Positions 648-62,264 of a stretch of 64,000 nucleotides of DNA are shown here, piece after piece. A model generated the notes under the pieces. It was not told where the DNA came from and made no database searches. It worked only from the letters and a program-made list of their open reading frames with translations. Numbering within the stretch: the first letter of the stretch is position 1; each line of letters opens with the position of its first letter. The stretch is taken from positions 62,001 to 126,000 of the forward strand of contig NZ_REFV01000007.1 in the NCBI RefSeq assembly GCF_003688895.1, written 5' to 3'. Source of the DNA: Dokdonia sinensis. GTDB lineage: Bacteria > Bacteroidota > Bacteroidia > Flavobacteriales > Flavobacteriaceae. The translations under genes and the position numbers were made by a program.

Positions 648-2410
648 TTATTGAGTTTAAAAAGTACCATAACGTTACAATATGCCACTTGAAATTGAGT
701 GTCCTCCTTTACGAGTTCTAGTTGTTTGAAATAAACTTTTACAGCGATACTGTCATTGTTTCCTGTGGCATAAATAAGCTCACTATCAAACGAACCATTA
801 TTACCCCCGTTCTTACGCAACTCAGCCGTTACGGTGTCTAATGAGATACTAAGGACCTGCTCTTGATCTTTTGTGACTTGAATAGCATTGGAATTTTCTT
901 CTAATGAAAAGCGATACCCTTGTATGATGTTTTCTGGATTATTATGTCGCTGTTGCTTATTGAGATACAAGTCCTTTATATAATCGTATCCAGAAACCAC
1001 GTATGCATTTGCCTCGTCATTATAGTAGGCTAGTCGCTCTGGATTTTGGTTATAAAGAGAGATTTTCAGTCCCAAACTGTCTAAAATCTTATCTCCCATA
1101 TTCCAACTTCTAGCATCAGGAAACGCTACTTTGGGGTTGTATCCTAAAGTGCTTTCGGTTTTATCTAATGTATTTCGGTCAGAGAGATATCTTGTTATGG
1201 AAACAAAGCGATCAGCGGTTTCACGAGATAATGTGGTGGAGTCCGCTTTCGCGAAAGCGTTATAAACCTCCTCAAACTGCTCCAGCTGACTGCGCTCCGA
1301 AACCGAAAACGCTCCCCAAAATCCAAAAGAACCCACCATTGCCATCACCGCCAAAGCCATAGGTAAAAATCGCAACTGTTGCTTCCTGCTGAAAATTAAG
1401 TAAAGCGTCGCTCCTGTGATAAAAACGGCTATGAGTACTAGAAAATATCGCGCCTCTGTCACACCATAATCCGCAATCCGCCTGTATATGGCAACGTAAA
1501 ATAGAAATAATAACGGGAGCATCGCCCAGTAAAACGCTGGTTGAAATTTCCGAATGAGTCGTGATGAATGACTCAGTCGCACAGGATGAATGATAATCTG
1601 AATGATAAAAAGTAAGGTCGCAAGCGCAATAATAAGGTAGCTTACCCAGCCCTTTGGCAATTCCCAAAGCGCCAAAATTTTAATAGCATAAGCATACAAA
1701 ATAACAACATAAAGTCCCGCCAGCGGGATCAAAATAAACTTTACAAAAACCTCAACAGGCTTATGAAATTCCATCCGAATATCGTGCTGGATTTCTTTTG
1801 GAAAATCGGACAGGTAAACCCAAGTGTTTACAATCCCCAAACAAATAATAAAGAGTTGAAAATAACGTATCCCGTCTATATCTATTTCAAACAGAAACTG
1901 TACAGCGAGCATCGCCAGTACAAGTCCCAAATATAATACACCAGAAAATAGAGCGCTCCGAGCAATCGCAATAATAATATTACTTAGGTAATTCCAGTAC
2001 GCCTTAGGGTGCCATACGGTTATAAATGGTGCAAAAAATAGTGCGAGATGCCCAGCGATAAAGTATAATGTCCACCTAATATACGGCGTATCATCCGTAT
2101 CAAAACGACCTACTTCATATTCTGGAAGCGTAAAATATAAAGCTATAAGCAGTCCTATAACAACAATCTTAATCCACCAAAGTGTTTTTTTCTTGAACTG
2201 CTCAATGTAGAATTGCGCTCCTATGAGCCAACTAATTCCCAGCACAAAAATCAAAATAAGATTGCCGTGTCGCTCAAAAGCACGCTCGCCTGGATCAACC
2301 AGAATAATGGTGATAACCGCACTTACGATTGCCCAAACCAGCGTAAACGGGAAACGTTTAAATGCCTCCGTGGCTTTTCTGGAGAACTCTGATAGTGAGA
2401 ATAATTTCAT
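644..2410 (-). CDS. DUF4153 multi-pass membrane protein
   Basis: 588 residues. The N-terminal two thirds is a series of roughly ten to twelve hydrophobic segments (from about residue 22 to residue 375), followed by a soluble C-terminal third. This architecture and the opening segment match DUF4153 proteins common in Flavobacteriaceae; function is unknown. Just after the last membrane span the protein reads NAFAKADS, encoded by a copy of the window-wide palindrome at 1245-1258. It overlaps the downstream exonuclease gene by ATGA. About 50 AT-rich bases separate it from the next minus-strand gene upstream (stop at 2464), so it may start its own transcript. Confidence 0.82.
   Translation of the reverse strand: MKLFSLSEFSRKATEAFKRFPFTLVWAIVSAVITIILVDPGERAFERHGNLILIFVLGISWLIGAQFYIEQFKKKTLWWIKIVVIGLLIALYFTLPEYEVGRFDTDDTPYIRWTLYFIAGHLALFFAPFITVWHPKAYWNYLSNIIIAIARSALFSGVLYLGLVLAMLAVQFLFEIDIDGIRYFQLFIICLGIVNTWVYLSDFPKEIQHDIRMEFHKPVEVFVKFILIPLAGLYVVILYAYAIKILALWELPKGWVSYLIIALATLLFIIQIIIHPVRLSHSSRLIRKFQPAFYWAMLPLLFLFYVAIYRRIADYGVTEARYFLVLIAVFITGATLYLIFSRKQQLRFLPMALAVMAMVGSFGFWGAFSVSERSQLEQFEEVYNAFAKADSTTLSRETADRFVSITRYLSDRNTLDKTESTLGYNPKVAFPDARSWNMGDKILDSLGLKISLYNQNPERLAYYNDEANAYVVSGYDYIKDLYLNKQQRHNNPENIIQGYRFSLEENSNAIQVTKDQEQVLSISLDTVTAELRKNGGNNGSFDSELIYATGNNDSIAVKVYFKQLELVKEDTQFQVAYCNVMVLFKLNK
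1245..1258. repeat. GCTTTCGCGAAAGC palindrome, copy 1 (coding, AFAKA frame)
   Basis: Perfect 14-base palindrome inside the DUF4153 gene, read as AFAKA just after the last transmembrane segment. Confidence 0.97.
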
Positions 2411-2463
2411 ATAACATCAAGAATGTTAAATGAAAATACAACAAAAAAATGAAGTTCATTTGC

Positions 2464-3612
2464 TCATCGAGTGTTGCCGAGCATCTCATACCCTGCATCT
2501 ATGTAATCATAAAAGTCTTTTGTAAACGATTTACCATCAACCCAAGCGCCTCGCTGATGTCCTAAACGCACAATTATCACATTGTCTTCTGGGATTGTAA
2601 TAACGTATTGTCCGAGGATGCCTCGCATTACAAAAATCTCCTTATTACGATGATTGCTCAACCAGAAACCATAGCCATAATCATCATCTGCAGGGAAACG
2701 TGGTCGGATGCTTCTTACTACAAAAGTGGAATCTAGTAGTTGAGTTCCATTCCATTTTCCGTGGTCTTTATACAGCTTTCCGAAGCGGGCAAAATCTCTT
2801 GCATTGCTCGCAATACAGCAATATGTTTTTGCAAGTCTGTTATCTTCATCGTCCAGTTGCCACAATGCAGGTTGCTCCATTCCCATAGGTTTCCAGAAAC
2901 TTTCTGAGAGGTACTGCGCCAGTGGTTTCCCAGTTGCTTTCTGAACAACCATTCCCAGCAATTGTGTGTTTCCAGATAAGTATTTTACACGCTGTCCAGG
3001 GGTTTCGGTTACTTTTTGATTAAGGATAGTTTCAGCAAGATCGTCGTCGTAATAGGCTCTTGCCGTCACGCTAAAAGGGCTTTTATAACTCTCTTCCCAA
3101 TCTAGCCCAGAGGACATAGAAGAAAGGTCTCCTACCGTAGTTGTCGCACCCTCGTACTGCTCATAAAAATCTCCAAGTGGCTGGTCGATACTTTTAATAG
3201 CTCCCTGCATAATGGCTTTTCCGAGCATTGCACTCGTGATACTTTTTGCCATTGAGAAGGAATTCGTTTGGGAAGTTGCGCTGTAACCCTCTGCATATTT
3301 CTCGTAAAAGATGCTGTCATTTTTAATGATAAGATAAGCTACGGTACCTAGTGCCTCATTAATTTCGGTTAACTGTTTAGTGGGCTCAGCGGTATTGTAG
3401 TCTTTGTGTTTGGGCCACAGCTGCGCAGTTCCATTATCAATAGTATCATTTTCGAAATATTTGTGATCGTCTATAAAAGCTGTGGTGTGACCCGTCATAT
3501 AAACGACACGCACTCCCTTTAGTATATACTCATAATCAGTAATATATAGTGCGATAACTATAATGACCAGCAGCCCGATGAGCCCTTTAAAAAAACCTTT
3601 GATGTATTTCAT
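2464..3612 (-). CDS. Class C beta-lactamase-fold serine hydrolase
   Basis: 382 residues from the ATG at 3612. An N-terminal membrane anchor (about residues 10-24) is followed by a periplasmic serine hydrolase domain of the beta-lactamase/DD-peptidase/NylB group. The nucleophile motif is S120-M-A-K123 (SxxK) and a YLSGN segment is the likely YxN-type motif. A longer reading frame exists upstream, but it would run antiparallel-in-frame through the ogt gene; the MKYIKGFF start followed directly by a hydrophobic segment is far more convincing. The substrate (peptide, amide, ester or beta-lactam) cannot be read from sequence. It lies downstream of ogt on the same strand, with palindrome copy 2 in the 79-base gap. 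Confidence 0.85.
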   Translation of the reverse strand: MKYIKGFFKGLIGLLVIIVIALYITDYEYILKGVRVVYMTGHTTAFIDDHKYFENDTIDNGTAQLWPKHKDYNTAEPTKQLTEINEALGTVAYLIIKNDSIFYEKYAEGYSATSQTNSFSMAKSITSAMLGKAIMQGAIKSIDQPLGDFYEQYEGATTTVGDLSSMSSGLDWEESYKSPFSVTARAYYDDDLAETILNQKVTETPGQRVKYLSGNTQLLGMVVQKATGKPLAQYLSESFWKPMGMEQPALWQLDDEDNRLAKTYCCIASNARDFARFGKLYKDHGKWNGTQLLDSTFVVRSIRPRFPADDDYGYGFWLSNHRNKEIFVMRGILGQYVITIPEDNVIIVRLGHQRGAWVDGKSFTKDFYDYIDAGYEMLGNTR

Positions 3613-3649
3613 ATTGATTGCTTTATTGCGATAAAAATAGGATAAGTAC

Positions 3650-3663
3650 GCTTTCGCGAAAGC
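3650..3663. repeat. GCTTTCGCGAAAGC palindrome, copy 2 (intergenic)
   Basis: Perfect copy between ogt and the serine hydrolase gene, flanked to give an 18-base palindrome ACGCTTTCGCGAAAGCGT. In RNA it would lie in the leader of the hydrolase gene. Confidence 0.97.
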
Positions 3664-3691
3664 GTAAAAACTCCCCTTAACCCTTGTTAAC

Positions 3692-4165
3692 TCAAAATAA
3701 TGTTCCTTGCGTGACGGGACTCTCGTGTTCCAGCAACCATTGCTTCCTGTGCAATCCGCCGGCATATCCCGTAAGCGCCCCATCGCTCCCGATAACACGA
3801 TGACAGGGAATTGCAATAGAAATAGGATTGCGACCGTTTGCACTCGCAGCTGCTCGTATCACTTTCGGGTCGCCCAGTTGCTTTGCCATATCGAGGTAGG
3901 TGGTTGTCTTCCCAAAAGGTATTTCTCTTAACTCCTCCCATACCTTCTTTTGAAAATCTGTCCCTTGTGGATTCTGTAAAAATGAAAATGTGGTTCTCTC
4001 CTTCTTAAAGTATTCCTTGAGTTGGCGCACGGCATCCTCAAGTACTTCTGGAATGACAGTAGTTTCAGGATGATTGTCGTCCATAAATGTGATAGCGGTA
4101 ACCCCTTGTGTGTCTCCTTGGACTTTGAGGCTGCCTATGGGAGAGTTTAAATATGCAATTTCCAT
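3692..4165 (-). CDS. ogt: Methylated-DNA-[protein]-cysteine S-methyltransferase
   Basis: 157 residues, the usual size for Ogt. It repairs O6-alkylguanine (and O4-alkylthymine) by irreversible transfer of the alkyl group to an active-site cysteine. The active-site signature IPCHRVIGS is present with Cys121, preceded by the helix-turn-helix region with R104-A-A-A (the Arg-finger segment) and followed by GYAGGLHRKQWLLEHE, which matches the family. Single domain with no Ada N-domain. The start MEIAYLNSPIG is typical of the family and is followed upstream by 113 non-coding bases shared with the divergent hybrid kinase gene. Confidence 0.95.
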   Translation of the reverse strand: MEIAYLNSPIGSLKVQGDTQGVTAITFMDDNHPETTVIPEVLEDAVRQLKEYFKKERTTFSFLQNPQGTDFQKKVWEELREIPFGKTTTYLDMAKQLGDPKVIRAAASANGRNPISIAIPCHRVIGSDGALTGYAGGLHRKQWLLEHESPVTQGTLF

Positions 4166-4278: not shown

Positions 4279-6513
4279 ATGAAGCATAACTTGCTTATTA
4301 TCATTTTTTTACTGTGCTTCACCAGCGCATTAAAAACCACCGCTCAGCAACGAACCATATCAAAAGATTCGTTAGAATCACTTAGCGATATAATCATCGA
4401 CCATCGAGATGATCTAGACTATAAAGGAGCTATTGAAACGGCAGCGCTCCTCATTTCAAATGCCAAAGATTCTAAACAAAAATTCTATGAGTTTCTGGGT
4501 TATGACCAACTGGGAACAATCTATACCGAGCTTAAAGACACGCTTCAAGCACGGTTAAGTTACGAAAAAGCCTTAGGAATTGCTCGTGAGACAAAGGCAG
4601 ATAGTCTTTTGTCCTGGTCTTATGTCAGTCTAGGAAATGTAGAGTCAGACCAAAAGGAAAATTACCAGAAAGGAATCGACTATTATGAAAAGAGTATTGC
4701 CATAAATGATGCAAATAATAAGCAGAATCAAAACTTAATTCCTTATCTAAACATAGGGTGGACCTACCTAGATGAAAATCAAGAGGATAAAGCACTTTAT
4801 TTTTTACTTAAGGCAAAAAATCTAGCCACACAGGATACTTTAAATTATAGAACACAGGTAAATGTCAAGACATTATTAGGTCGTTATAACATAAAAAAAG
4901 GAAACTATACGCTTGCTGATGAACTTCTTAATGAAGCCGCAACACTCGTAGAGAAGTATAATTGTGTATACGAGGGTTCAGAAGTATATCGCTACTATGC
5001 ACAATTGGAAGAAGCGCGCGGAAACTACAAAAAAGCATATAGCTATCTCAAAAAGAATAAAGAACTAGACGCTCGCATTTACGAGTCTGATAAATTAAGC
5101 GAAATACAGATAGCAAGTGCACAATTTAAGATAGAGCAATATGAGCGTACCATCGCTACCGCAGAGAAGGAAAGTCAGTTTGCTGAAGAGCTTGTAAAAA
5201 AATCTAAACAACTCAATTACATTTTTATTGCCGCATCTCTTATTCTTCTGGGAGCTTTGATAGGAATTTACTTTGCCTTTAAATCTCGTAAAAAATACAT
5301 AAAACGCTTACACGAGAAAAACAACCAGCTTATGGCAGCAAAGGACAGCGCAGAGCGCTTGTCTAAATTAAAAACCCAGTTCTTCTCTACAGTAAGTCAT
5401 GAGTTACGCACTCCACTTTATGGAGTAATAGGAATAGCCTCTATCCTTCTAGAAGATAATACCATCAAAACACACCAAGATGATTTGAAGTCATTAAAAT
5501 TTTCGGCAGATTATCTTCTCGCACTTATTAATGATGTTCTTCTCATTAATAAGATGGATGCAAATGGAATTAAATTGGAGCACACCCCTTTCCGACTAAG
5601 TACACTTACTAAAAGTATAACCCGTTCTTTTGAGTTTAGTCTAGAGCAGAATAAGAACAAAATACATCTTGCTATAGATAAAAATGTCCCGAATAAACTT
5701 ATAGGCGACTCCGTACGGCTTTCTCAAATTCTTATGAATTTAATAGGGAACGCCATAAAATTTAACGAAAACGGAAATATTTGGGTGAACATAGACTTGA
5801 TAGATAAAACCCCTTCTGGACTATATCGTACACAATTTACTGTAAAGGATGACGGTATTGGGATTCCGGCTAGCAAGCATCAGAGTATTTTTGAAGAATT
5901 CTCACAAGTAGAAAACCGAAACTACAACTATCAGGGAACAGGTTTAGGATTACCCATTGTAAAAAAGCTGCTAACACTACACGATAGTGAGATAAATCTA
6001 GATAGTTCTGTGGGTAAAGGTTCAACCTTTTCATTTATTCTGAACTTAGAAGCAGATGCATCTGTAAATATGGAAGTCCATATGGGCGCGCCATTGCAGG
6101 ATTTAGAAAATCATACCATACACTCTTTAAAAACAGTTCATATTCTAGTTGTAGATGACAATCGTATCAATCAAAAAATCACTCAAAAAATCTTAGAAAA
6201 GCGCAAGTTTAAATGTAGTCTTGCAAATGATGGTGAGGAGGCCATAGCCCTTGTTCAAGAGCAGAACTACGACCTTATTTTAATGGACATTCATATGCCT
6301 AAAATAGATGGGATCCAAGCTACAAAGGTTATAAGAAAGTTTGATAAAACTACTCCTATTGTTGCTCTTACAGCGGTTGAGATGGATGAGATGCGCGCTA
6401 CGATTATGAATTCTGGAATGAACGATATTATACTCAAGCCCTACGATATCTCACAATTCCTCACAATTATATTGAGAAATCTTAATGCCGCTTTCGCGAA
6501 AGCGGACTCCTAA
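4279..6513 (+). CDS. TPR-containing hybrid sensor histidine kinase/response regulator
   Basis: 744 residues. Order: signal peptide (about 1-22), periplasmic tetratricopeptide repeats (about 40-280), one transmembrane helix (about 314-335), a short coiled coil, HisKA with phospho-acceptor His374 in FSTVSHELRTPLYG, HATPase_c (N box MNLIGNAIKFNENG, G boxes DDGIGIPAS and GTGLGLPIVKKL), then a C-terminal receiver domain with the acidic pair in VVDDN, phospho-acceptor Asp670 in LILMDIHMP and Lys in ILKPYD. It should autophosphorylate and pass phosphate to its own receiver; there is no DNA-binding output domain, so a further relay partner is likely. The last residues NAAFAKADS come from a palindrome copy. 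Its stop codon directly abuts the convergent stop of the DinB gene. Confidence 0.92.
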   Translation: MKHNLLIIIFLLCFTSALKTTAQQRTISKDSLESLSDIIIDHRDDLDYKGAIETAALLISNAKDSKQKFYEFLGYDQLGTIYTELKDTLQARLSYEKALGIARETKADSLLSWSYVSLGNVESDQKENYQKGIDYYEKSIAINDANNKQNQNLIPYLNIGWTYLDENQEDKALYFLLKAKNLATQDTLNYRTQVNVKTLLGRYNIKKGNYTLADELLNEAATLVEKYNCVYEGSEVYRYYAQLEEARGNYKKAYSYLKKNKELDARIYESDKLSEIQIASAQFKIEQYERTIATAEKESQFAEELVKKSKQLNYIFIAASLILLGALIGIYFAFKSRKKYIKRLHEKNNQLMAAKDSAERLSKLKTQFFSTVSHELRTPLYGVIGIASILLEDNTIKTHQDDLKSLKFSADYLLALINDVLLINKMDANGIKLEHTPFRLSTLTKSITRSFEFSLEQNKNKIHLAIDKNVPNKLIGDSVRLSQILMNLIGNAIKFNENGNIWVNIDLIDKTPSGLYRTQFTVKDDGIGIPASKHQSIFEEFSQVENRNYNYQGTGLGLPIVKKLLTLHDSEINLDSSVGKGSTFSFILNLEADASVNMEVHMGAPLQDLENHTIHSLKTVHILVVDDNRINQKITQKILEKRKFKCSLANDGEEAIALVQEQNYDLILMDIHMPKIDGIQATKVIRKFDKTTPIVALTAVEMDEMRATIMNSGMNDIILKPYDISQFLTIILRNLNAAFAKADS
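6490..6503. repeat. GCTTTCGCGAAAGC palindrome, copy 3 (coding, AFAKA frame)
   Basis: Perfect copy overlapping the last codons of the hybrid kinase gene, ending eight bases before the end of the stop codon at 6511-6513. In RNA it would form a stem exactly at the 3' end of the transcript. Confidence 0.97.
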
Positions 6514-8197: not shown

Positions 8198-8211
8198 GCT
8201 TTCGCGAAAAC
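8198..8211. repeat. Palindrome near-copy GCTTTCGCGAAAAC (intergenic)
   Basis: One base differs from the 14-mer (the second-last G is A). Located about 80 bases upstream of the CNNM start and 34 bases before the DUF3291 gene on the same strand. Confidence 0.85.
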
Positions 8212-8755: not shown

Positions 8756-8769
8756 GCTTTCGCGAAAGC
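8756..8769. repeat. GCTTTCGCGAAAGC palindrome, copy 4 (intergenic)
   Basis: Perfect copy 61 bases upstream of the DUF3291 start, in the divergent region shared with the XRE regulator gene. Confidence 0.97.
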
Positions 8770-11034: not shown

Positions 11035-11934
11035 TTACAAATACTGCAAAGACACCTTCGAGTCATCAATATTTATCTCCACCTCACTCCCCAAAACAAG
11101 CGCTCTGTTATCATCTACGTGTCCAGCAGGAAAATCAAAGGCTACGGGAAAAGTACATTCCTTTACAGCATCCATCACAATTTGTTGCGCGGTCTTGCCA
11201 AAGGGAATGCGGTTATCGTGCATTTTTGTCATTCCTCCCACAACCATTCCAGCGCAATGGTCTAGCATTCCGTTGCGTTTTAGGTTTACCACCATTCGGT
11301 CTATATGGTAGAGGTATTCGTCCAGGTCTTCGATAAAAAGTATTTTCCCACTAGTGTCCAGACTACTGCTGCTTCCGCAAAGGCTGTATAGGATGGAAAG
11401 GTTTCCGCCTACGAGCTCGCCTTTGGCTGTGCCAGGGCGATTTAAGGAGTTTGTGGTGTTGTAAGTAAAGTCAGGTTTCTTGCCAAATAGTGATTGTTTT
11501 AGGGACGCTTTCGCGAAAGCGGTATTATCCTCAACACTTACAGGCATTGTAGCGTGTATTGTTTTGAACCCAATCTTGTGAACGTGGCTGTGCAATACCG
11601 TCACGTCAGAGTAACCCACAATCCATTTAGGATATTTTACAAATTTGTAAAAATCTAGTTGGTCTATAATACGCACCGTTCCATATCCTCCCCGCGCGCA
11701 CCAAATCGCTTTAATATCGGGGTTATCCAGCATCGTTTGAAAGTCTTGAGCTCTCTGGTAATCTGTGCCCGCATACTGATTGTCTTCCAGACCTATGGTT
11801 TTTCCTACCACGGGAACAAGCCCCCAACTTTTAAGAAGTTGTATCCCCTCATCCAGTTCATCAAGAGAAATTTTACGTGCCGTAGCAACCAAACCGACTT
11901 TATCGCCGTATTTAAGAAAAGGAGGTGTAACCAT
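11035..11934 (-). CDS. LD-carboxypeptidase (peptidase S66)
   Basis: 299 residues, usual for the S66 family, which cleaves the L-Lys(or DAP)-D-Ala bond of tetrapeptides during murein recycling. Nucleophile Ser109 sits in GYSDVT; the catalytic Glu is expected in LFIEDLDEYLYHIDRM, and the His is in FDFPAGHVDDN. No signal peptide, consistent with cytoplasmic recycling enzymes. A surface insertion-like segment NTAFAKASLK (about residues 137-146) is encoded by palindrome copy 5. The gene is upstream of YraN on the same strand. Confidence 0.92.
   Translation of the reverse strand: MVTPPFLKYGDKVGLVATARKISLDELDEGIQLLKSWGLVPVVGKTIGLEDNQYAGTDYQRAQDFQTMLDNPDIKAIWCARGGYGTVRIIDQLDFYKFVKYPKWIVGYSDVTVLHSHVHKIGFKTIHATMPVSVEDNTAFAKASLKQSLFGKKPDFTYNTTNSLNRPGTAKGELVGGNLSILYSLCGSSSSLDTSGKILFIEDLDEYLYHIDRMVVNLKRNGMLDHCAGMVVGGMTKMHDNRIPFGKTAQQIVMDAVKECTFPVAFDFPAGHVDDNRALVLGSEVEINIDDSKVSLQYL
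11507..11520. repeat. GCTTTCGCGAAAGC palindrome, copy 5 (coding, AFAKA frame)
   Basis: Perfect copy in the LD-carboxypeptidase gene, encoding residues 139-143. Confidence 0.97.
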
Positions 11935-15249: not shown

Positions 15250-15263
15250 GCTTTCGCGAAAGC
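15250..15263. repeat. GCTTTCGCGAAAGC palindrome, copy 6 (intergenic)
   Basis: Perfect copy directly behind the terminator of the DUF1800/DUF1501 operon. Confidence 0.97.
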
Positions 15264-15529: not shown

Positions 15530-17626
15530 ATGTCACAACGTTATACGATTACTGCTGCCCTTCCATACACAAATGGACCCATACATATAGGTCATCTTGC
15601 TGGGGTTTACGTGCCAGCAGATATTTATGCCAGATACCAGCGCCTGCAAGGGGCAGACGTAGCCTTTATTTGCGGAAGCGATGAGCACGGTGTGCCCATT
15701 ACCATTAAGGCAAAAAAAGAGGGGATAACACCACAGCAGGTTGTAGATAGATATCACGCAATTATCAAGCAGTCCTTTATAGATTTTGGAATCACCTTTG
15801 ATAATTACTCACGTACGAGTGCAAAAGTTCACCACGACACGGCGAGTGAGTTTTTTAAGAATATGTATGATCAGGGGAAATTTCTTGAGGAGACAAACGA
15901 GCAATTATATGATGCAGAGGCAAACCAGTTTCTGGCAGATCGATTTGTGACAGGAACTTGTCCTAAGTGTGGTTTTGAAGAAGCATACGGCGATCAGTGC
16001 GAGAATTGTGGTACGTCTCACAACGCTACAGATCTTATCAACCCTAAAAGTGCCATTACCGGAGCGGTACCTACGCTTAAAGAAACCAAACATTGGTTTT
16101 TACCCTTAGATCAATACAATGACTTCTTTAAAAAGTGGATCATAAAGGGACACAAAAAAGATTGGAAAACAAACGTTTACGGACAATGCAAATCGTGGAT
16201 AGACGACGGCCTGCGCCCGCGCGCTGTAACTCGTGACCTTGATTGGGGAATTCCTGTTCCAGTTGAGGGAGCAGAAAGTAAGGTACTTTACGTTTGGTTT
16301 GACGCACCTATAGGCTACATTTCTTCTACAAAAGAGTGGGCAGCTAGAGAAGGCAAGGAATGGGAACCGTATTGGAAGGATGAAAACACAAAGTTGCTTC
16401 ATTTTATCGGGAAGGATAATATTGTCTTTCATTGTTTGATTTTTCCTGCAATGCTCAAAGGACACGGCGAGTATATTTTACCAGATAACGTTCCAGCAAA
16501 CGAATTTTTAAATCTTGAAGGTCGCAAACTTTCTACGTCTAAGAACTGGGCGGTGTGGTTGCACGAGTATCTAGAGGATTTTCCCGGTCAGCAGGATGTA
16601 TTGCGATATACCCTTACTGCAAATGCTCCAGAAACTAAAGATAATGACTTTACGTGGGCAGACTTCCAGTTGCGTAATAATAGTGAGCTCGTAGCTATTT
16701 TTGGTAATTTTATTAATCGAGTGACGGTACTTACTCATAAATATTATGATGGGGCTGTACCAGAGCCTAGGGAGTTTAATAACGTGGACAAGGAAACGCT
16801 ACAAACAATGCGTGCTTACCCTTCGGTAATAGGCAGCTCAATTGAGAAATACCGCTTTCGCGAAAGCCAAACAGAGCTCATCAACCTCGCCCGCTTAGGA
16901 AACAAATACCTAGCCGATGAGGAGCCTTGGAAGACCATAAAAACAGACGAAGCCCGCACCAAAACTGTAATGTACGTAGCACTTCAAATTGCTGCCGCAC
17001 TCGCCGTTTTGAGTGAACCATTATTACCGCATACGAGTGAAAAATTGAAAGGTATACTGAATTTAACTCCAAGCGATGGCGCGGAGTCTCTTGTGTGGGG
17101 CGAGGTCGCTACCCGAGAAGCCCTCTTAGATAAAAATCATGTGATCAACACATCTCAACTCCTCTTCTCAAAAATAGAAGACGACCAAATTCAGAAACAA
17201 TTGGACAAACTAGAAGCGAGTAAAATTGCAAACGACCTCTCGGCTACGCTCGAGGTGCAGGAGGTCGCCCCGCAGAAAGAGACCATCACCTTTGATGACT
17301 TTACAAAACTCGATATGCGCGTAGGCACCATCATCGAGGCTGAGAAAATGGCAAAGACTAAAAAGCTTCTTATCCTAAAAGTAGACACAGGCATAGACAC
17401 AAGAACTATAGTCTCTGGCATCGCCGAAAGTTTTACACCCGAAGAAGTGGTAGGAAAGCAAGTAACGGTACTTGTAAATCTTGCTCCTCGCGCATTGCGC
17501 GGTGTGGAAAGCGAGGGGATGATACTGATGACGGAGGATGCTAGTGGGAAGTTGGTTTTTGTGAATCCTGACACCGCGGCTACGCTCGGTGCAGGTGGGG
17601 TTGGGAACGGGAGCGTGATAAGTTAG
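15530..17626 (+). CDS. metG: Methionine-tRNA ligase
   Basis: 698 residues, the long MetG1 form. Charges initiator and elongator tRNA-Met with methionine using ATP. HIGH motif at 19-22, zinc knuckle with CPKC and CENC (about residues 144-160), KMSKS variant K333-L-S-T-S, an anticodon-binding helical domain (about 390-560) and a C-terminal EMAP/Trbp111-type tRNA-binding domain (about 595-698; [28 protein letters not shown]). The palindrome at 16854 encodes R442-F-R-E-S446, where related MetRS enzymes, from memory, have a similar RFRE sequence, so the repeat fits without an indel. Monocistronic or leading into the downstream secreted-protein genes (19-base gap). Confidence 0.97.
16854..16867. 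repeat. GCTTTCGCGAAAGC palindrome, copy 7 (coding, FRES frame)
   Basis: Perfect copy inside metG in the anticodon-binding domain, read as R-FRES. Confidence 0.97.
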
Positions 17627-19108: not shown

Positions 19109-21235
19109 ATGAATAGTTCCGTCTTTATTGCTGAACAAAGTACAATTTCCATTGAAAAAGTCAAAAACACCCTATCCCTCCTCGCACAAGACTGCACCCT
19201 TCCCTTTATCGCACGTTATCGTAAAGAAGCCACTGGCGGTCTGGATGAAGTCGAAATAGGTAAAATCATCGAACTTAAAGAACAGTTTGAAGCTTTAGAA
19301 AAGCGTAAAAAAGCAATCCTTAAATCACTCGAAGAGCAAGAAGTTTTAACTCCTGAGTTTAAAGCAAAAATAGAAGATACGCAAGACCTAACCACCCTCG
19401 AAGACCTTTACCTACCCTATAAAAAGAAACGCCAGACCAAAGCCGAGACAGCCCGCAAAAACGGACTAGAGCCACTTGCCAAAATCATAATGGCACAAAA
19501 CGCCACAGATGTAGAAGGCCTCGCACAACGCTATACAAACGACGAAGTCCCGGATGCAGAAAGCGCCTTTGAAGGCGCAAGACACATTATTGCAGAGTGG
19601 CTTAACGAGCGCACGGACATACGCAACAACATCAGGCGCCAACTCACACGTCACGCCCTTATAGAAACCAAAGTCGTAAAGAAAAAAGCTACAGGGGAGA
19701 AAGCACAGAAGTTCAGAGATTATTTCGACTTTTCGGAGCCGTTGAGTCGTTGTCCTTCCCACAGATTACTCGCTATTCTCAGAGCTGAAAATGAAGGGTT
19801 CATACGTGTAAAAATTATCATAGATGATGACCGAGCACTCGATATGATAGCCCGTAAAATCATAAAATCCAATAATGACTGCGCCGGCCAAATAGAACTC
19901 GCTATAAAAGACGCCTACAAGCGCTTACTTCTACCAGCATTATCTAACGAGACCCTCACTGAAGCAAAACAAAAAGCAGATGAGACGGCCATCGCCGTAT
20001 TTGCAAAAAATCTCAAGCAACTTCTGCTCGGTTCACCACTGGGAGAGAAACGCATACTAGCGATTGACCCTGGTTTCCGCACGGGGTGTAAGGTGGTTTG
20101 TCTGGATGCTCAGGGGCAATTACTACACAATGAGACCATATATCTACATCCTCCTAAGAGTGATGAAAAAGGAACCATAAAAAAGATTTCCAGTCTTACA
20201 GATGCTTATAAAATCGAAGCTATCGCTATAGGAAATGGTACCGCCTCCCGCGAGACAGAACGGCTCATAAAACGCGTTCATTTTAAAAATCCCATTGAGG
20301 TTTTTGTGGTGAGCGAGGCTGGCGCATCCATTTACAGCGCCAGCAAGATTGCCCGCGACGAGTTTCCTAATTACGATGTGACCGTGCGTGGCGCTGTCTC
20401 CATAGGTCGTAGATTACAGGACCCGCTGGCAGAGCTGGTGAAAATAGATGCAAAGTCCTTAGGCGTAGGACAATATCAACACGATGTGGACCAGACCGCC
20501 CTTAAGAAAAGTCTTGACCAGACGGTAGAGCTCTGTGTGAATGCCGTGGGTGTAAATGTAAACACCGCAAGTGCTCCGTTACTGAGCTATGTTTCGGGAA
20601 TAGGAGAAAAATTGGCAGAGAGTGTTGTACGCTTTCGCGAAAGCGAAGGACCCTTCATCACCCGTCACGACATTAAAAATGTTCCACGTTTGGGAGCGAA
20701 AGCTTTTGAACAATCGGCTGGGTTTTTACGGATTAAGAATGGCACAAACCCGCTGGATGATTCGTCGGTGCATCCTGAACGCTACGCACTTGTCCAAAAA
20801 ATAGCCAAAGACCAAAAAACTTCCGTGCAGGAATTGATAGGAAATACTAAAAATCTCAAAGACATAGACCTCAACAACTATGTCACTGAAGAGGTAGGTC
20901 TTCCAACCCTTAAAGATATTATCGCCGAGTTAGAAAAACCAGGTTTAGACATACGAGAAAAAGCAAAAATTTTCACCTTTAATCAAAACATCCGAACGAT
21001 AGAAGATGTGCAACCCGGACAATTATTACCTGGTATTGTGAATAATGTGACAGCCTTTGGCGCATTTGTAGATATTGGTATTAAAGAAAGTGGTCTCATA
21101 CATATCTCAAACCTGGCAGATGGATTTGTGAGCGATGTAAATACCCACGTAAGCTTACAACAACAAGTGATTGTAAAAGTGCTAGAAGTGGATATAAAAC
21201 GGAAGCGGATACAATTGAAATTAGAGAAGGTATAA
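19109..21235 (+). CDS. tex: Tex-family S1 RNA-binding transcription accessory protein
   Basis: 708 residues. Tex is a conserved cytoplasmic nucleic-acid-binding protein linked to transcription and RNA processing. Order: N-terminal helical region (1-190; PFIARYRKEATGGLDEV is the family signature), YqgF/RNase H-like domain (about 320-440, beginning ILAIDPGFRTGCK), helix-hairpin-helix repeats (about 490-560) and a C-terminal S1 domain (about 638-708). Residues 508-512 RFRES come from a palindrome copy and sit at a position where Tex proteins usually have a basic/acidic turn before NGPF-type sequence. Starts 12 bases after the frameshifted gene. Confidence 0.95.
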   Translation: MNSSVFIAEQSTISIEKVKNTLSLLAQDCTLPFIARYRKEATGGLDEVEIGKIIELKEQFEALEKRKKAILKSLEEQEVLTPEFKAKIEDTQDLTTLEDLYLPYKKKRQTKAETARKNGLEPLAKIIMAQNATDVEGLAQRYTNDEVPDAESAFEGARHIIAEWLNERTDIRNNIRRQLTRHALIETKVVKKKATGEKAQKFRDYFDFSEPLSRCPSHRLLAILRAENEGFIRVKIIIDDDRALDMIARKIIKSNNDCAGQIELAIKDAYKRLLLPALSNETLTEAKQKADETAIAVFAKNLKQLLLGSPLGEKRILAIDPGFRTGCKVVCLDAQGQLLHNETIYLHPPKSDEKGTIKKISSLTDAYKIEAIAIGNGTASRETERLIKRVHFKNPIEVFVVSEAGASIYSASKIARDEFPNYDVTVRGAVSIGRRLQDPLAELVKIDAKSLGVGQYQHDVDQTALKKSLDQTVELCVNAVGVNVNTASAPLLSYVSGIGEKLAESVVRFRESEGPFITRHDIKNVPRLGAKAFEQSAGFLRIKNGTNPLDDSSVHPERYALVQKIAKDQKTSVQELIGNTKNLKDIDLNNYVTEEVGLPTLKDIIAELEKPGLDIREKAKIFTFNQNIRTIEDVQPGQLLPGIVNNVTAFGAFVDIGIKESGLIHISNLADGFVSDVNTHVSLQQQVIVKVLEVDIKRKRIQLKLEKV
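20631..20644. repeat. GCTTTCGCGAAAGC palindrome, copy 8 (coding, FRES frame)
   Basis: Perfect copy in the helix-hairpin-helix region of tex. Confidence 0.97.
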
Positions 21236-22817: not shown

Positions 22818-22831
22818 GCTTCTGCGAAAGC
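22818..22831. repeat. Degenerate palindrome copy GCTTCTGCGAAAGC (intergenic)
   Basis: Two bases differ in the left arm; it is no longer fully palindromic. Placed 22 bases before the start of paralogue 3. May be a decaying copy. Confidence 0.6.
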
Positions 22832-32144: not shown

Positions 32145-32158
32145 GCTTTCGCGAAAGC
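32145..32158. repeat. GCTTTCGCGAAAGC palindrome, copy 11 (intergenic)
   Basis: Perfect copy placed two bases after the terminator T-tract, between convergent genes. Confidence 0.97.
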
Positions 32159-36148: not shown

Positions 36149-36162
36149 GCTTTCGCGAAAGC
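36149..36162. repeat. GCTTTCGCGAAAGC palindrome, copy 12 (intergenic, 5' leader)
   Basis: Perfect copy, with flanks an 18-base palindrome; 24 bases before the ATG of the SDR gene at 36186. Confidence 0.97.
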
Positions 36163-38739: not shown

Positions 38740-38753
38740 GCTTTCGCGAAAGA
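38740..38753. repeat. Palindrome near-copy GCTTTCGCGAAAGA (intergenic)
   Basis: Last base changed to A. Its right arm GAAAG is also the base of the following stem-loop. Confidence 0.85.
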
Positions 38754-40754: not shown

Positions 40755-40755
40755 A

Positions 40756-42291
40756 TTGAAAACCTTAAGACTCATACTAGGCGACCAGCTCAACCATAAA
40801 CACTCGTGGTATAATGACCCGAATGAAGACATCATCTATTTTATGGCCGAAATGCGCCAAGAAACAGATTACGTAAAACACCATATTCAGAAAGTAGTGG
40901 CTTTTTTTCAGGCGATGCGGGAGTTTTGTGCGTGGCTGGAGGAACGCGATCATAGGGTGATTTATTTTAGACTGGACGATAAAAAGAACGGGCAGGATCT
41001 AACAGAGAACTTGAAGAAACTCATCAAGGAACACGATATTGAAAAGTTTGAATATCAATTACCTGACGAGTATAGACTCGATGAACAGCTTAAAGATTTT
41101 TGCGAGAGCATATCCATCGACACCGAGTCCTTCGATACCGAGCATTTTATGACTACCAGAACAGAGCTCGCCGAATTTTATGAAGGCAAGAAGCAGTTTA
41201 CAATGGAATACTTTTACCGTATGATGCGTAAGAAGTACGACATTATGATGGTAAACGCAAAGGATCCTGAAGGCGGAAAATGGAATTATGATCACAGTAA
41301 CCGTAACAAGTGGAAAGGCGACACGGAGATTCCTCACGAGCGCGGTTTTAGAAAAGACGTTTCTGATATTGTGGATTTGCTCGAAAAGGAAGAAGTAGAA
41401 ACGATGGGGCGGATAGAGGCTAAAAACTTCAGTTGGCCCACGAGTCGGGAGGATGGACTTTCGGTGTTGAATTATTTCTGCAAGAACCTACTGGTACATT
41501 TTGGAGATTTTCAGGATGCGATGGATCCGGAGGAGGCCTACCTCTTTCATAGCAGATTGAGCTTTGCGATGAACAGCAAGTTGCTCTCTCCGCAGGAAGT
41601 GATTGAGACCGTCATAGGCTACTGGCGCGACCATCAGGATGAGATAGACATCAGTCAGGTGGAGGGTTTTGTACGGCAGATTCTAGGCTGGCGGGAATAT
41701 ATGAGAGGGATGTACTGGAGGGAGATGCCCGCTTTCGCGAAAGCAAACCACCTAGAAAACTCAAATAAACTACCCGATTTTTACTGGACGGGCGATACTA
41801 AAATGAACTGCCTAAAATGCAGTATTAATAATAGTCTGGACAACGCTTACGCCCATCACATCCAGCGCCTGATGATTACGGGCAATTATGCCCTACTCAC
41901 GATGTGCGACCCAGATGAGGTGGATGCGTGGTATCTGGGCGTTTACATAGATGCTATCGAGTGGGTGGAGATTACAAATACCCGTGGGATGTCACAATGG
42001 GCAGACGGCGGAAAGATTGCGACAAAACCCTACGTTTCCAGCGGGAGTTACATCAATAAAATGAGTAATTACTGTAAAGGATGCCATTATAAAGTGAGCA
42101 AGAAAACGGGCGAAGACGCGTGTCCGTTCAACAGTTTGTACTGGAATTTTCTGGACGAGAAACGCAGTCATTTTGAGAACAACCAGCGTATGAATATGAT
42201 GCTGAGCTTGCTGGATAAAATGAACAAGGACACCCTCACGGCTCACAAAGAACGTGCGCAAGATATTATAGAAAATCCATCCAATTATTAA
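40756..42291 (+). CDS. Fe-S bacterial cryptochrome/(6-4) photolyase family protein
   Basis: 511 residues. Opens [18 protein letters not shown], the start typical of the deoxyribodipyrimidine photolyase-related (PhrB/CryB, FeS-BCP) family. The four Fe-S ligands are expected in NCLKCS, YCKGCHY and ACPFNSLYW of the C-terminal domain. Known members repair (6-4) photoproducts and carry FAD, a lumazine antenna and a [4Fe-4S] cluster. The start must be the TTG at 40756: an in-frame TAA of the heptamer tract lies six bases upstream, and the next ATG would remove the first beta strand. A palindrome at 41731 encodes AFAKA. The stop at 42289-42291 lies inside the start region of the next photolyase gene. 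Confidence 0.9.
41731..41744. repeat. GCTTTCGCGAAAGC palindrome, copy 13 (coding, AFAKA frame)
   Basis: Perfect copy in the Fe-S photolyase gene; read [12 protein letters not shown]. Confidence 0.97.
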
Positions 42292-42325
42292 GGAGACTGT
42301 CAACATATTATGGTTTAAACGGGAC

Positions 42326-43807
42326 TTGCGCTTGCACGACCATATGCCGTTGTACAATGCACTTAAGGAGGACAAATCATTGTTGTTGCTCTATGTTTTT
42401 GAACCTTCTTTACTCAAGGACAAGCATTACAGCGAGCGACATTTTAATTTCATAAAAGAGTCTTTGCGGGACCTTCAGCAACAGCTTTTTGGGTTTGACG
42501 CAAAGATTTTGATAGTTGAGGGAGAGGTGGTTCCTATTTTTAAGCAATTGCTTGAGTGCATAAAGATTCACACGTTGTTTTCTCATCAAGAAACGGGATT
42601 GCGGATTACGTATGATAGAGATTTGGAATTGGAAGCTTTCGCGAAAGCGTTAAAATCCCAAGGTTCTCCAGATAAATTTGGTTGGGTGGAGTATTGCAAC
42701 AATGGGGTACAACGCGGACTTAGAAACCGCTACGGCTGGTCGCAGGATTGGGAGGCGTTTATGCTGGAAAAGCAATTGCCTTTTGCTCCAAAACAAGGCG
42801 ATTTAGTATCAAAAGGTACGATTGAAGATTTAGAAAGCTACTTTACAATCCCATCGCTCCAAACGCCGAAAGACACTCCGTTCCAAAAAGGAGGAACAGC
42901 AATTGGAAGACGCTATTTACAGTCTTTTTTACACGGAGGACGCCATAAAAATTACAGTAACCACATCAGTAAACCGCTAAAAGCCCGCAAAAGTTGCTCG
43001 CGGATGTCGCCGTATATCGCGTGGGGGAATTTGAGTATTCGGGAAGTGTGGCAAACGGCTAAGGTATTTAGAAACAATAGTTCGGCCACTTCAGGTGTTC
43101 GGGTAAATAAACGCGCCATCGACGGATTTACCTCGCGACTGCGCTGGCAGGCACATTTTATCCAAAAATTTGAGATGGAAGATAGGATGGAGTTTGTTGC
43201 TGTAAACGAAGGGTATCACAACTTGGACAAACCACGTAATGAGAAGCATCAAAAGGCTTGGCGAGAAGGGAAAACTGGATTTCCATTAGTAGATGCTTGT
43301 ATGCGTTGCCTTAACGAGACAGGCTATCTCAATTTTAGAATGCGAGCAATGGTTGTTTCCTTTTTTACCCATAACTTATGGCAACCGTGGCAGGGTTGTT
43401 CGGCGCATCTGGCACAGCAGTTTTTGGATTTTGAGCCTGGAATTCACTATCCGCAGTTGCAGATGCAGGCTGGGGAGACGGGCATTAATACGTTGCGCAT
43501 CTATAACCCAGTAAAAAATAGCGAAGAACACGATCCCGAAGGTGTTTTTATAAAGCAATGGATTCCGGAACTAAATGCAGTTCCCACGGCTTACATTCAC
43601 GAGCCCTGGACGTTGCCACTTCTGGAACAGCAGTTTTGCAATACATTTATAGGAGTGGATTATCCAGAACCCATCATTAAGATGAAGGAAACCGCAAGAA
43701 AGGCTAGTGATATTCTTTGGAAATTAAAAGATAACAATGTGGTGCAACGGGATGCCTTGCGCATTCTGAAACGGCATACGTTAGCAGATAGGAATAATTT
43801 TGATTGA
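42326..43807 (+). CDS. FAD-binding photolyase/cryptochrome family protein
   Basis: At least 493 residues. An alpha/beta antenna domain (about 1-150) and a C-terminal FAD domain with [67 protein letters not shown] and the ending [13 protein letters not shown] are seen. The first canonical start (TTG at 42326) lies inside the conserved first strand: the codons upstream read ILWFKRD immediately before LRLHDH. No ATG, GTG or TTG occurs between it and an in-frame stop at 42269; only ATT at 42287 (overlapping the upstream TAA) or ATA at 42305 (nine bases after AAGGAG) could start a full-length protein. Contains a palindrome read AFAKA (42635). Likely translationally coupled to the Fe-S gene. Confidence 0.85.
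42635..42648. repeat. GCTTTCGCGAAAGC palindrome, copy 14 (coding, AFAKA frame)
   Basis: Perfect copy in the third photolyase gene, read [10 protein letters not shown]. Confidence 0.97.
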
Positions 43808-50107: not shown

Positions 50108-50980
50108 ATGAATGCTCAGAAAATGATTACTGCAAAGGAAAAGCTATTCTCAAAACATCTCAATCGCGAGGTCACCTACCGCTGGGCCGCTCCCGCCGAT
50201 TACAAGACATCTGGACTGCAATATCCCCTTCTATTAATGAATGATGGGCAGGATTACGAGAAGATGAAACTAGCGGCTACGCTGGAAAAATCCTTTACTT
50301 CAGAACATACGGCGCCATTTATTTATATGGGTCTGGAGACTAATGAAAATAGGATGCAGGAGTATGGTCTAGCACATTCGGCAGATTTTAAAGGTCGTGG
50401 GTCTAGGGCAAAGCAGTACACAGCTTTTGTACTCGAAGAGTTTTTGCCTTCTGTAAAAAGAAATTTTCCGCTTTCGCGAAAGCATACCGACTATGTTTAT
50501 TGTGGGATGTCATTAGGTGGTCTTTCTGCTTTTGATATCGTGTATAATAATGCGCACTATTTTGGAAAAGTTGGCGTCTTTAGCGGAAGTTTCTGGTGGC
50601 GCAACAAGGCGTATGTGAAAAACGATATGCACGACAGAAGCCGTATGGTTTTAGACTTGGTCAAAAATAATGTAGCTCCCGCACATCTTAAGTTTTGGTT
50701 CCAGTGTGGCACTTTAGACGAAAAAGCAGACCGCAATAATAACGGAATCATAGATGCCATAGACGATACCCAGGACCTCATAAAGGAATTACGTAAAAAG
50801 CGATATATGTACCCCCGTGATATTGTATATGTAGAGGTGCCCGGAGGCAAGCACGATCTTCCTACGTGGGGAAAGATTTTTCCAGAATTCATCAGTTGGG
50901 CATTTGGAAAGGCAACCACAGCTGAAACTAATGTAAAGTTGAAAAGAAAGGGTGGGGTTTTTACGAGTGGTTTGGAGTAG
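50108..50980 (+). CDS. Putative esterase (alpha/beta hydrolase), divergent from the operon
   Basis: 290 residues, cytoplasmic. Family of putative esterases (EstD/feruloyl-esterase-like fold): YPLLLMNDGQDY, nucleophile GMSLGG with Ser135, acid in QCGTLDEKADRNNNG, and His in VPGGKHDLPTWGKIFPEFISWAF. Residues 122-126 LSRKH are encoded by a palindrome copy. Divergent from the operon by 115 bases, so the two esterases may be co-regulated. An ATG at 50123 is an alternative start. Confidence 0.85.
   Translation: MNAQKMITAKEKLFSKHLNREVTYRWAAPADYKTSGLQYPLLLMNDGQDYEKMKLAATLEKSFTSEHTAPFIYMGLETNENRMQEYGLAHSADFKGRGSRAKQYTAFVLEEFLPSVKRNFPLSRKHTDYVYCGMSLGGLSAFDIVYNNAHYFGKVGVFSGSFWWRNKAYVKNDMHDRSRMVLDLVKNNVAPAHLKFWFQCGTLDEKADRNNNGIIDAIDDTQDLIKELRKKRYMYPRDIVYVEVPGGKHDLPTWGKIFPEFISWAFGKATTAETNVKLKRKGGVFTSGLE
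50470..50483. repeat. GCTTTCGCGAAAGC palindrome, copy 15 (coding, LSRK frame)
   Basis: Perfect copy in the divergent esterase gene. The only perfect copy between 42.7 and 55.8 kb. Confidence 0.97.
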
Positions 50981-51091: not shown

Positions 51092-51099
51092 TACCTTTG
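51092..51099 (+). promoter_or_regulatory. -7 element of the G8/HYR-like giant gene
   Basis: TACCTTTG (TAnnTTTG), 20 bases before the ATG at 51120. No clear -33 TTTG. Confidence 0.45.
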
Positions 51100-51119
51100 T
51101 TTGTTGTAAATTATTGATT

Positions 51120-55885: not shown

Positions 55886-55899
55886 GCTTTCGCGAAAGC
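55886..55899. repeat. GCTTTCGCGAAAGC palindrome, copy 16 (intergenic)
   Basis: Perfect copy 20 bases after the stop of the giant secreted gene, before its terminator. Confidence 0.97.
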
Positions 55900-61493: not shown

Positions 61494-61524
61494 TATGGAA
61501 AAGAGTTTCCATAAAATTTCCATA
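61494..61524. promoter_or_regulatory. TATGGAAA/TTTCCATA operator-like sites
   Basis: TATGGAAA (61494-61501) and TTTCCATA (61506-61513) form an inverted repeat with a four-base spacer; a third TTTCCATA is at 61517-61524. They sit in the gap between the TCS operon and the gene at 61557. Confidence 0.4.
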
Positions 61525-61556
61525 GGTGAGTAGGTAGGAACTTAGAATTATTGATT

Positions 61557-62264
61557 ATGCATAGGGATATTATTTTATCCGCTTTCGCGAAAGCAAAAAC
61601 AGAAGAATTCAAAAAAACAAGAATAGAGCCTTCCGTAAATAAGGCTTCAAAATGTATTGAAGCTTATATTGCTGATTATAGTACAATTCCTTTTAGTGCA
61701 AGAAGTCTGCGCAATGCTCACAATGATGCATTAGATAAAACCAAAACAGTAAAGATCCTTCAGCCAGATGTGCTAAATGCGTTATGTATGTATCTGGGAT
61801 TTGAGACTTATGCAGATTATATTCGAGAAAGGGAAGCGCATTCACCCGAGGAAAAAGTACAGCAAGAGGATAACGAGTCTAAACAATCTGTTAAGCACTA
61901 TAAGTGGATTGCTCTTTTAGCTTTGGTAATGTTGGTCGGGTCAAGTATTTATTTCTTTTCAAATAAGCAACGATGGATGATCTGGCAAGAAAATCAATAT
62001 GTTGAGGTTCCCTTTGACAGAATAATGCTCAAAGAAGGGAGATTAAAACTTTATAAAGAAGAACGTTTAGATAATTTTAGAAAAGTAGTGCTCACTTGTG
62101 ATACTACATTTTTTACAAAAGCTGGTAATCCTCGGTTTTGGTACGGAAAGAATAACGATAAAGAGTTAGAGTTCTTTACAGATCTAGCTCAACATCCCGA
62201 AACAGGTAAATCATTAAAGCCTATTACCATATATATGATTAAGAAATATTTATGCGCAGAATAA
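61557..62264 (+). CDS. Single-pass membrane protein of unknown function
   Basis: 235 residues from MHRDIILSAFAKAK. A predicted cytoplasmic N-terminal helical part (about 1-110; KKTRIEPSVNKASKCIEAYI), one transmembrane helix (about 120-138; WIALLALVMLVGSSIYFF) and a C-terminal extracytoplasmic domain (about 140-235; TCDTTFFTKAGNPRFWYGKN). No named family recognised. The N-terminal AFAKA is a palindrome copy. The upstream operator-like repeats could belong to this gene or to the TCS. Confidence 0.65.
   Translation: MHRDIILSAFAKAKTEEFKKTRIEPSVNKASKCIEAYIADYSTIPFSARSLRNAHNDALDKTKTVKILQPDVLNALCMYLGFETYADYIREREAHSPEEKVQQEDNESKQSVKHYKWIALLALVMLVGSSIYFFSNKQRWMIWQENQYVEVPFDRIMLKEGRLKLYKEERLDNFRKVVLTCDTTFFTKAGNPRFWYGKNNDKELEFFTDLAQHPETGKSLKPITIYMIKKYLCAE
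61581..61594. repeat. GCTTTCGCGAAAGC palindrome, copy 17 (coding, AFAKA frame)
   Basis: Perfect copy at codons 9-13 of the membrane protein gene; the only perfect copy between 55.9 and 64 kb. Confidence 0.97.

Follow-up and report, generated by a model that had tools for sequence, protein, structure and literature searches.

Here we describe an exact 14 bp palindrome, GCTTTCGCGAAAGC, that recurs throughout a 64,000-nucleotide stretch of the Dokdonia sinensis genome (contig NZ_REFV01000007.1, positions 62,001 to 126,000) and far beyond it. This stretch is hereafter called the window, and feature positions are counted from its first letter. The evidence points to a genome-wide DNA recognition signal that has previously gone undescribed. 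The reading that we favour, while regarding it as tentative and somewhat short of probable, is that of a palindromic, uptake-like self-DNA recognition sequence read by a putative symmetric protein.

Within the window there are 23 matches to the palindrome with two or fewer mismatches (17 perfect, six near-copies), whereas 100 dinucleotide-shuffled versions give 0.27 on average, and all 23 lie where a preliminary description made from the sequence alone had placed them. That description also counted six perfect copies between genes and eleven inside them, which agrees with the table of open reading frames (ORFs): eleven are inside long ORFs and six are outside (8756, 15250, 32145, 36149, 55886 and 61581). 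Two of these six are matters of judgement, as the copy at 8756 overlaps a 135-aa TTG ORF that we take to be spurious, whilst that at 61581 overlaps the opening codons of a TTG ORF; both were counted as intergenic. Two interrupted copies had been mentioned without coordinates, and the clearest interruption in the window is at 8198, where one arm is replaced by CCCGAAACAAATACGGAACACGT. Five of the six near-copies are one-armed sites that keep the core TTTCGCGAAA intact, the exception being 22818. The matches are listed below; no strand (.) is assigned to any of them.

1245..1258, strand., perfect copy within ORF 644-2410(-)
3650..3663, strand., perfect copy with ACGC..GCGT extension, within ORF 2464-3843(-)
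6490..6503, strand., perfect copy within histidine-kinase-like ORF 4279-6513(+)
8198..8211, strand., one-armed copy; GCTTTCGCGAAA retained, other arm swapped for the hairpin-like insert CCCGAAACAAATACGGAACACGT
8756..8769, strand., perfect copy, taken as intergenic; perfect in 6/6 alignable species
11507..11520, strand., perfect copy within ORF 11035-11934(-); perfect in 6/6 aligned species
15250..15263, strand., perfect copy, intergenic, upstream of metG
16854..16867, strand., perfect copy in metG, coding for FRES; perfect in 5/6 aligned species
20631..20644, strand., perfect copy within ORF 19109-21235(+); perfect in 5/6 aligned species
22818..22831, strand., weak near-copy with 2 core mismatches; membership doubtful
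25066..25079, strand., perfect copy in ligase-associated helicase ORF 24332-26842(-); perfect in 6/7 aligned species
26165..26178, strand., one-armed copy in the helicase gene
27688..27701, strand., one-armed copy in ligase ORF 27363-29027(-)
28030..28043, strand., one-armed copy in the ligase gene
29828..29841, strand., perfect copy with ACGC..GCGT extension, in exonuclease ORF 29024-30052(-); perfect in 7/7 aligned species
32145..32158, strand., perfect copy, intergenic
36149..36162, strand., perfect copy with ACGC..GCGT extension, intergenic
38740..38753, strand., one-armed copy; an inverted repeat GAAGATA..TATCTTC abuts the core
41731..41744, strand., perfect copy within ORF 40756-42291(+)
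42635..42648, strand., perfect copy in photolyase-like ORF 42326-43807(+)
50470..50483, strand., perfect copy within ORF 50108-50980(+)
55886..55899, strand., perfect copy, intergenic, directly past ORF 51051-55865(+)
61581..61594, strand., perfect copy, counted as intergenic; lies close to the start of TTG ORF 61551-62264(+)

The genome from which the window comes (3,647,482 bases in 43 contigs) holds 857 copies, or one per 4.3 kb (~235 per million bases), and the reversed word, used as a control, occurs 0 times. All 18 species of the host genus carry the palindrome, at 369-905 copies each. Across the family, at least one copy is present in 79 of 397 genomes (235 genera) and only six of these are rich: two of the host genus (G000, G002), three of a second genus, g11 (G027, G256 and G406, with 578, 664 and 609 copies), and one of a third, g190 (G206, 408 copies). 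The remaining 73 have just 1 to 19 copies. In the phylum as a whole, 22 of 394 genomes have a copy and none exceeds six except the window's own. A plasmid search using 25 kb of the window gave no match.

We examined the anatomy of the site in 464 kb of own sequence, consisting of the window and positions 1-400 kb of contig C1. Perfect, one-mismatch and two-mismatch copies number 107, 22 and 29 in this sample, and a fourth-order Markov model expects 0, 0.5 and 0.9. The g11 genus shows the same strictness, with 50 perfect and 5 one-mismatch copies in 220 kb. The core TTTCGCGAAA occurs 139 times in the sample and has at least one GC arm every time; 107 occurrences are two-armed and 32 are one-armed. 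All 32 one-armed sites hold the palindrome TTTCGCGAAA plus one GC arm, and the minimum of 10 bp is itself palindromic. The arms extend to CGC...GCG at 83 of the 107 sites (10 of 17 in the window) and to the 18-mer ACGC...GCGT at 27 of them (3 of 17 in the window), so that the earlier statement that many flanks reach the 18-mer was too strong. Among one-mismatch copies the commonest substitution is C to T at the core CpG (7/22).

Beyond the arms, composition follows a rule over about 18 nt, with C scarce on the left and G scarce on the right. In 472 arms from two species, C is at 7.1% at positions -18 to -2, 12% at -24 to -19 and 18.4% at -70 to -46, whilst T and G make up 39% and 26% at -18 to -2. 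In the window itself, C accounts for 23 of 289 left-flank positions and G for 21 of 289 on the right, against 20% each overall. The rule is seen in 58 clear intergenic sites, and intergenic flanks taken alone are T-rich more than GT-rich; at coding sites upstream C is 3-13% per codon position and frame, a figure with no codon-specific background behind it. The rule is also present in g11, where T stands at -10 in 83% of arms. One-armed sites have 1.75 G per 18 nt on the intact side and 2.9 on the lost side, compared with 3.5 in the sequence at large (Wilcoxon p 0.013, n 32), and this stronger rule on the intact side suggests that each arm together with its flank forms a unit. The flanks of perfect copies are alike in composition, not in sequence. 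Two further ideas were dropped: complementarity between the two flanks of a site is about what composition predicts, and an apparent sharp edge at -19/-20 weakened with more data, C still being at ~12% out to -24.

The sites are spread with unusual regularity. Over the 400 kb of C1, the spacing of 90 full sites has a coefficient of variation (CV) of 0.65, compared with 0.98 ± 0.10 under random placement, and two gaps are shorter than 1 kb where 18 are expected. For the 17 perfect sites of the window the CV is 0.46 against 0.91 in simulations, and for 50 sites in g11 (G256 C1, 1-220 kb) it is 0.40 against ~0.97, with none of the 49 gaps below 1 kb where 10 are expected. Spacing is thus too even for chance in two genera and is less clear in the third, g190 (see below). 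Twenty 20 kb stretches of the chromosome of another genome, G001 (12% of it), hold 3-9 sites each, 129 in total, with an index of dispersion of 0.30 and with no visible gradient round the chromosome or relation to GC skew. Such even coverage suggests that the distance to the next site is what counts. Moreover, 37 of the 107 sites of the 464 kb sample are outside ORFs and 70 inside, though only ~9% of the sequence is outside by this simple ORF rule; other rules give 41 intergenic sites or, when stricter, 25 clear intergenic and 66 coding. All three frames are used within genes (AFAKA 41, LSRK 17, FRES 12). A role as terminator or promoter was rejected, the intergenic sites being 26 tandem, 9 divergent and 6 convergent compared with 23.1, 10.0 and 7.9 expected. 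In the longest gap between full sites on C1 (139.9-157.5 kb) no phage or transposon domain was found in the nine ORFs scanned.

To assess conservation, the 40 kb surrounding the helicase gene in each of seven relatives in the genus was compared with the window; aligned stretches were 75-79% identical. Of 38 alignable site-by-species comparisons at ~76% identity, 35 are perfect, two differ by one base and one by four; these comparisons are not independent, the species being related, and local alignment may favour conserved places. Control 14-mers are unchanged in 1.7-3.9% of cases in the same alignments. All pairs among eight species yield 481 aligned and likewise non-independent comparisons, of which 418 are perfect, 10 half and 53 other. 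Most of the pairs shown have gap-free alignments at sites within conserved genes. Judging from these alignments, the positions of the sites are apparently maintained by evolution.

In metG the site changes with the protein. At MetG codon 442 the palindrome reads FRES, and serine occupies this position in 15 of 15 rows that have the site or, in G003, its one-base decay (13 of the host genus, G206 and G406). It does so in 0 of 95 other rows, which are all alanine or glycine (80 of them among the matches listed). Of the 80 named loci among the matches listed, the nearest being Patiriisocius marinus at 80%, 74 have alanine and 6 glycine (FREA or FREG), the 14-mer is absent and no other palindrome of similar strength appears at the thresholds used. 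Alanine is also found in all 15 of a set made up of 13 motif-poor genomes, one of which duplicates a named row with an identical MetG, and two g11 genomes without the site. Many named rows have serine as the next residue (FREASQ) and an alternative alignment could be drawn for them; in the closest comparisons (FREAQQ, and FREALQ against FRESLN within g11) the change is plainly from alanine to serine. The metG site thus differs from its relatives by substitution. A quick MetG tree sets the three rich genera apart, the host genus leaving an unresolved fork. However, in a test on 50 rows with the residues of the site cut out, a single clade of these genera is not rejected (p-AU 0.65); we have therefore abandoned the claim that they are unrelated, and one origin of the palindrome system in the three is possible. 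The serine rows as one clade are rejected (p 3e-6) and three changes are needed on the 50-row tree. Were the three rich genera monophyletic, a single gain plus a single loss in two g11 species would suffice. On either tree, the change of the MetG residue accompanies the site.

This strong conservation, together with 857 copies in the genome, their presence in 18 of 18 species and the over-even spacing, supports the genome-wide system proposed in the preliminary description. Two outcomes had been named there as speaking against such a system. The first, a fall of copy density to background elsewhere in the genome, did not occur; the second, a mobile element footprint, is unsupported, given flanks that are unlike in sequence and a metG site that differs by substitution. 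The flank rule, the even spacing and the one-armed nature of five of the six near-copies were absent from that description.

From the palindrome, its symmetric flanks, the one-armed half forms and the place-by-place conservation, we infer that a protein recognises the double-stranded site in a two-fold symmetric manner. Each copy would be a two-fold symmetric double-stranded recognition site of ~50 bp, with TTTCGCGAAA at its core, flanked by a single GCG arm or a pair of them and then by ~18 nt that are T/G-rich on the left or A/C-rich on the right, and the putative reader would be dimeric or otherwise symmetric. Such sites may mark the cell's own DNA. Their likeliest use would be in DNA uptake and recombination, with site-bearing fragments taken in or retained better, and preferential uptake could spread and keep sites until there is one per few kilobases, resulting in even spacing. 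Known uptake sequences are significantly evenly spaced and commoner in non-coding DNA than expected (Bakkali 2007, PMC1939737), AT-tracts flank the Haemophilus core and help uptake (PMC7811141), and the DNA uptake sequence (DUS) is conserved in place (PMC1939737, PMC7811141 and PMC2397512, taken together on uptake features). The palindrome resembles the uptake signal sequence (USS) of Haemophilus influenzae and the DUS of Neisseria in its hundreds to thousands of near-exact copies (about a thousand or more), its over-even spacing and its excess between genes despite being common within them, and it resembles the Haemophilus USS in the biased tracts beside the core. It differs from both in its palindromic core, a flank rule on both sides, a Bacteroidota host, copies on some phages and a density of ~1 per 4 kb rather than ~1 per 1 kb. 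What is novel here is an iterated recognition sequence that is palindromic, flanked and in another phylum.

Few bacterial groups are known to have genome-wide recognition sequences of this kind, which mould both the genome and the proteome as a whole. In the same family as the host, Riemerella columbina prefers its own DNA in transformation, with no uptake sequence established for it, and Flavobacterium johnsoniae has only part of the pilus set and was not competent there (PMC7965970). An uptake sequence in Dokdonia would therefore fall in a phylum with self-DNA preference but no established sequence. The exact 14-mer occurs in none of the 5.39 million papers searched, a set with most subscription journals outside it, and may be in print elsewhere; the preliminary description likewise knew of no account. 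Searches on the parts of the site, on overrepresented palindromes in Bacteroidetes and on flavobacterial uptake sequences gave nothing on the palindrome by title or start of abstract. The strictness of the site makes the putative binding protein directly testable.

Several observations weigh against uptake. Known uptake sequences are non-palindromic (PMC1939737), and the motif here is a palindrome. In g190 (G206 C1, 1-260 kb, 43 sites) the CV of 0.82 is not significant, 13% of simulations being as low, and the flank rule is weak; gaps below 1 kb number 0 there against 6.4 expected. Of five Pfam families sought in ten motif-rich and six motif-poor genomes, that of the secretion/pilus ATPases (PF00437) is over cut-off in three of the motif-rich (G007, G009 and G256) and one of the motif-poor (G229), and pilus-borne receptors of known kind therefore seem unavailable in most motif-rich genomes, unlike in organisms with USS or DUS. 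ComEC (PF03772) is found in all 16 genomes, including the six motif-poor, and so does not discriminate. No uptake receptor was found, pilus machinery having been checked via PF00437 only, and no competence data for the host genus were found in the literature. Indeed none of the five families (PF01555, PF00145, PF00437, PF03772 and PF12705) tracks the motif, and no binding protein was found among them. Of the case for an uptake sequence, which the preliminary description had listed among possible kinds, the spacing, conservation and tract-like flanks agree, whilst the palindromic core and PF00437, which fails to pass cut-off in 7 of the 10 motif-rich genomes, do not.

The sites on phages weigh in the same direction. 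A scan of viral contigs with the 14-mer gave at least 120 stretches with matches, and 22 of 133 viral sites among the matches listed have three or fewer C or G at the flank positions. Among 14 contigs chosen because they showed several sites or stretches, 12 are low in GC; these have 2-4 sites in the portion covered and flank C/G fractions of 0.03-0.18, the two others having 0.19 and 0.28. One tailed phage lineage, represented by six contigs (L193, L211, L244, L385-L388, L420-L423), encodes portal, protease-like, major head, adaptor and tape measure proteins. It also has an integrase-like gene (E 1.3e-13), together with a replication initiator, and its head protein is 45% identical to that of Cellulophaga phage phi39:1. 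All six contigs carry sites, the lineage having 3-4 spaced copies, and at least three sites are at the same places across strains whose tape measure proteins are 83-99% identical. Another phage contig, with three sites, has genes for a transposase and a DNA transposition protein. As injected phage DNA requires no uptake signal, sites on contigs with an integrase-like or transposase gene count against uptake. These contigs were found through the motif and thus show that carrying and keeping sites is possible, not how frequent it is. No sites were found in the other 30 of 35 head-protein relatives of the lineage, nor in the other 14 of 19 tape-measure relatives, and a second viral scan with an extended consensus returned five contigs that were all in the first set.

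The palindromic form, the PF00437 result and the presence of sites on phages suit a mark acting inside the cell. An unlikely, though serious, possibility is an intracellular self mark, in which a ~50 bp palindromic double site, repeated at intervals of a few kilobases in three or more flavobacterial genera, would be recognised by a putative symmetric reader that spares or repairs marked DNA; temperate phages would copy it as a pass, and it would alter conserved residues. If the sites do not serve uptake, they may thus be a new chromosomal self mark imitated by phages.

One form of such a mark is Chi-like, and we consider it unlikely but tenable. Here the site would stop or redirect a resecting nuclease, recombination would begin immediately 5′ of the core, on the strand rich in G and T, and temperate phages would carry sites against degradation. 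Chi is a short asymmetric motif recognised in one strand orientation; it occurs once per few kilobases and has GT-rich surroundings. The sites described here share its density, with even coverage at about one per 4 kb, and its surroundings, the DNA 5′ of the core being T/G-rich and C-poor on both strands; they are plausible as a self mark and, when one-armed, follow the flank rule more closely on the side that is intact. However, the site is a palindrome, as is its 10 bp minimum, and so lacks the asymmetric, strand-oriented shape of Chi, and intergenic flanks are T-rich rather than GT-rich. The AddB-type nuclease domain (PF12705) is present in 16 of 16 genomes, which suits a Chi-like role but is not limited to the motif-rich ones. 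Sites persist in the phage lineage that has the integrase-like gene, three or more of them staying in place between diverged strains, but phage contigs found through the motif are a biased sample, and two Nonlabens phages (35 kb read each), whose host may or may not be motif-rich, have 0 copies within two mismatches. RecA is reported to prefer TGG repeats resembling Chi (PMC3763553).

A binding site for a chromosome-organising protein, needed every few kilobases for loops or bridges, is in our view rather improbable; the preliminary description had offered a nucleoid or repair protein, and a site of that kind is possible. Two-fold symmetry and tract-like flanks would suit a dimer that bends DNA, the sites are even round the chromosome without visible gradient, they occur in genes and in all three intergenic classes, and they are conserved. 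The exact sequence at so many places is nevertheless hard to square with bulk architecture, we know of no nucleoid protein of such specificity, and no candidate gene was found, no search having been aimed at one. The sites of the ParB family (parS, Noc and KorB) are also palindromes, and those of parS and Noc have TTTC...GAAA half-sites. The half-sites here are 2 bp closer than in that consensus, copies number in the hundreds and are evenly spread, and the G001 stretches show no clustering near origin or terminus of the parS, Noc or matS type.

Much less likely is a palindrome made and kept via an orphan DNA methyltransferase, as Elhai proposed for the highly iterated palindrome (HIP) HIP1 of cyanobacteria (GCGATCGC). 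Like HIP1 and the alternate HIPs, the sequence here is over-represented in coding and non-coding DNA and is a target of small repeats, SDR5 being mentioned as inserting into HIP1 (PMC4390886); moreover, C to T at the core CpG is the commonest substitution. However, it spans 14-20 bp rather than 8 bp, its density is several-fold lower (~235 against 1000-2000 per million bases) and the sections of PMC4390886 at hand describe no flank rule comparable with the long composition-biased flanks here. Of the two common methyltransferase families covered, N4/N6 enzymes (PF01555) are over cut-off in 2 of 10 motif-rich genomes and C5 enzymes (PF00145) in 5 of 10. Neither has any match in motif-rich G007, G016 and G256, and G003 has only a below-cut-off PF01555 match. 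The HIP model, a methylation-linked iterated palindrome, is weakened by these three site-rich genomes for the two families covered. A footprint of a mobile element or of a repeat family such as the repetitive extragenic palindromes is scarcely credible, for while hairpin repeats lie inside or against some copies, these appear inserted into the site and not vice versa, perfect copies share flank composition but no inserted unit, conserved-gene sites mostly align gap-free and the metG site differs from relatives by substitution.

It is as if the palindrome were an insertion target for short hairpin repeats. A pattern for sites broken after GCT has 44 matches in the own genome (reversed control 0); by reading, 29 are truly broken and 15 are words that chance to precede an intact site. 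Nine of the 29 contain CCTGCC-type palindromes and most others contain other hairpins of ~20-24 nt. CCTGCC-type matches number 21 in the 464 kb sample, counting both strands, and 13 of them adjoin a core. The types seen inside or against the palindrome, above chance placement, are CCTGCC..GGCAGG, CTGAAA..TTCAG, CCGAA..TTCGG and TTCGACTnCGCTCAG, an example being G000:C1:180361-180397 and, in the window, 8198 and 38740.

In motif-poor genera, some copies are on copper-resistance islands (L001-L004, L008, L010-L012; annotated in L003 and L012). By Pfam, the island of G095 encodes a CusA-type pump, an outer membrane factor, a multicopper oxidase and a P-type ATPase, and that of G349 is similar. 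The 24 nt flanks shown are identical in G104 and G118 (L002, L004), and G229 and G029 have near-identical sites. Such DNA thus seems to move out of motif-rich hosts, and we read the copies there as moved DNA. A 933 bp spacing recurs in G095, G104, G118, G176 and G229, perhaps as a footprint of transfer from motif-rich donors.

As for the gene neighbourhood, the window has two photolyase/cryptochrome genes at 39069-43807, one of DASH type (39069-40358) and one photolyase-like (42326-43807), separated by an ORF with no NCBIfam family match. It also has, at 24332-30052, a ligase-associated DNA damage response set of helicase, ligase and exonuclease, which holds two perfect and three one-armed copies of the palindrome.

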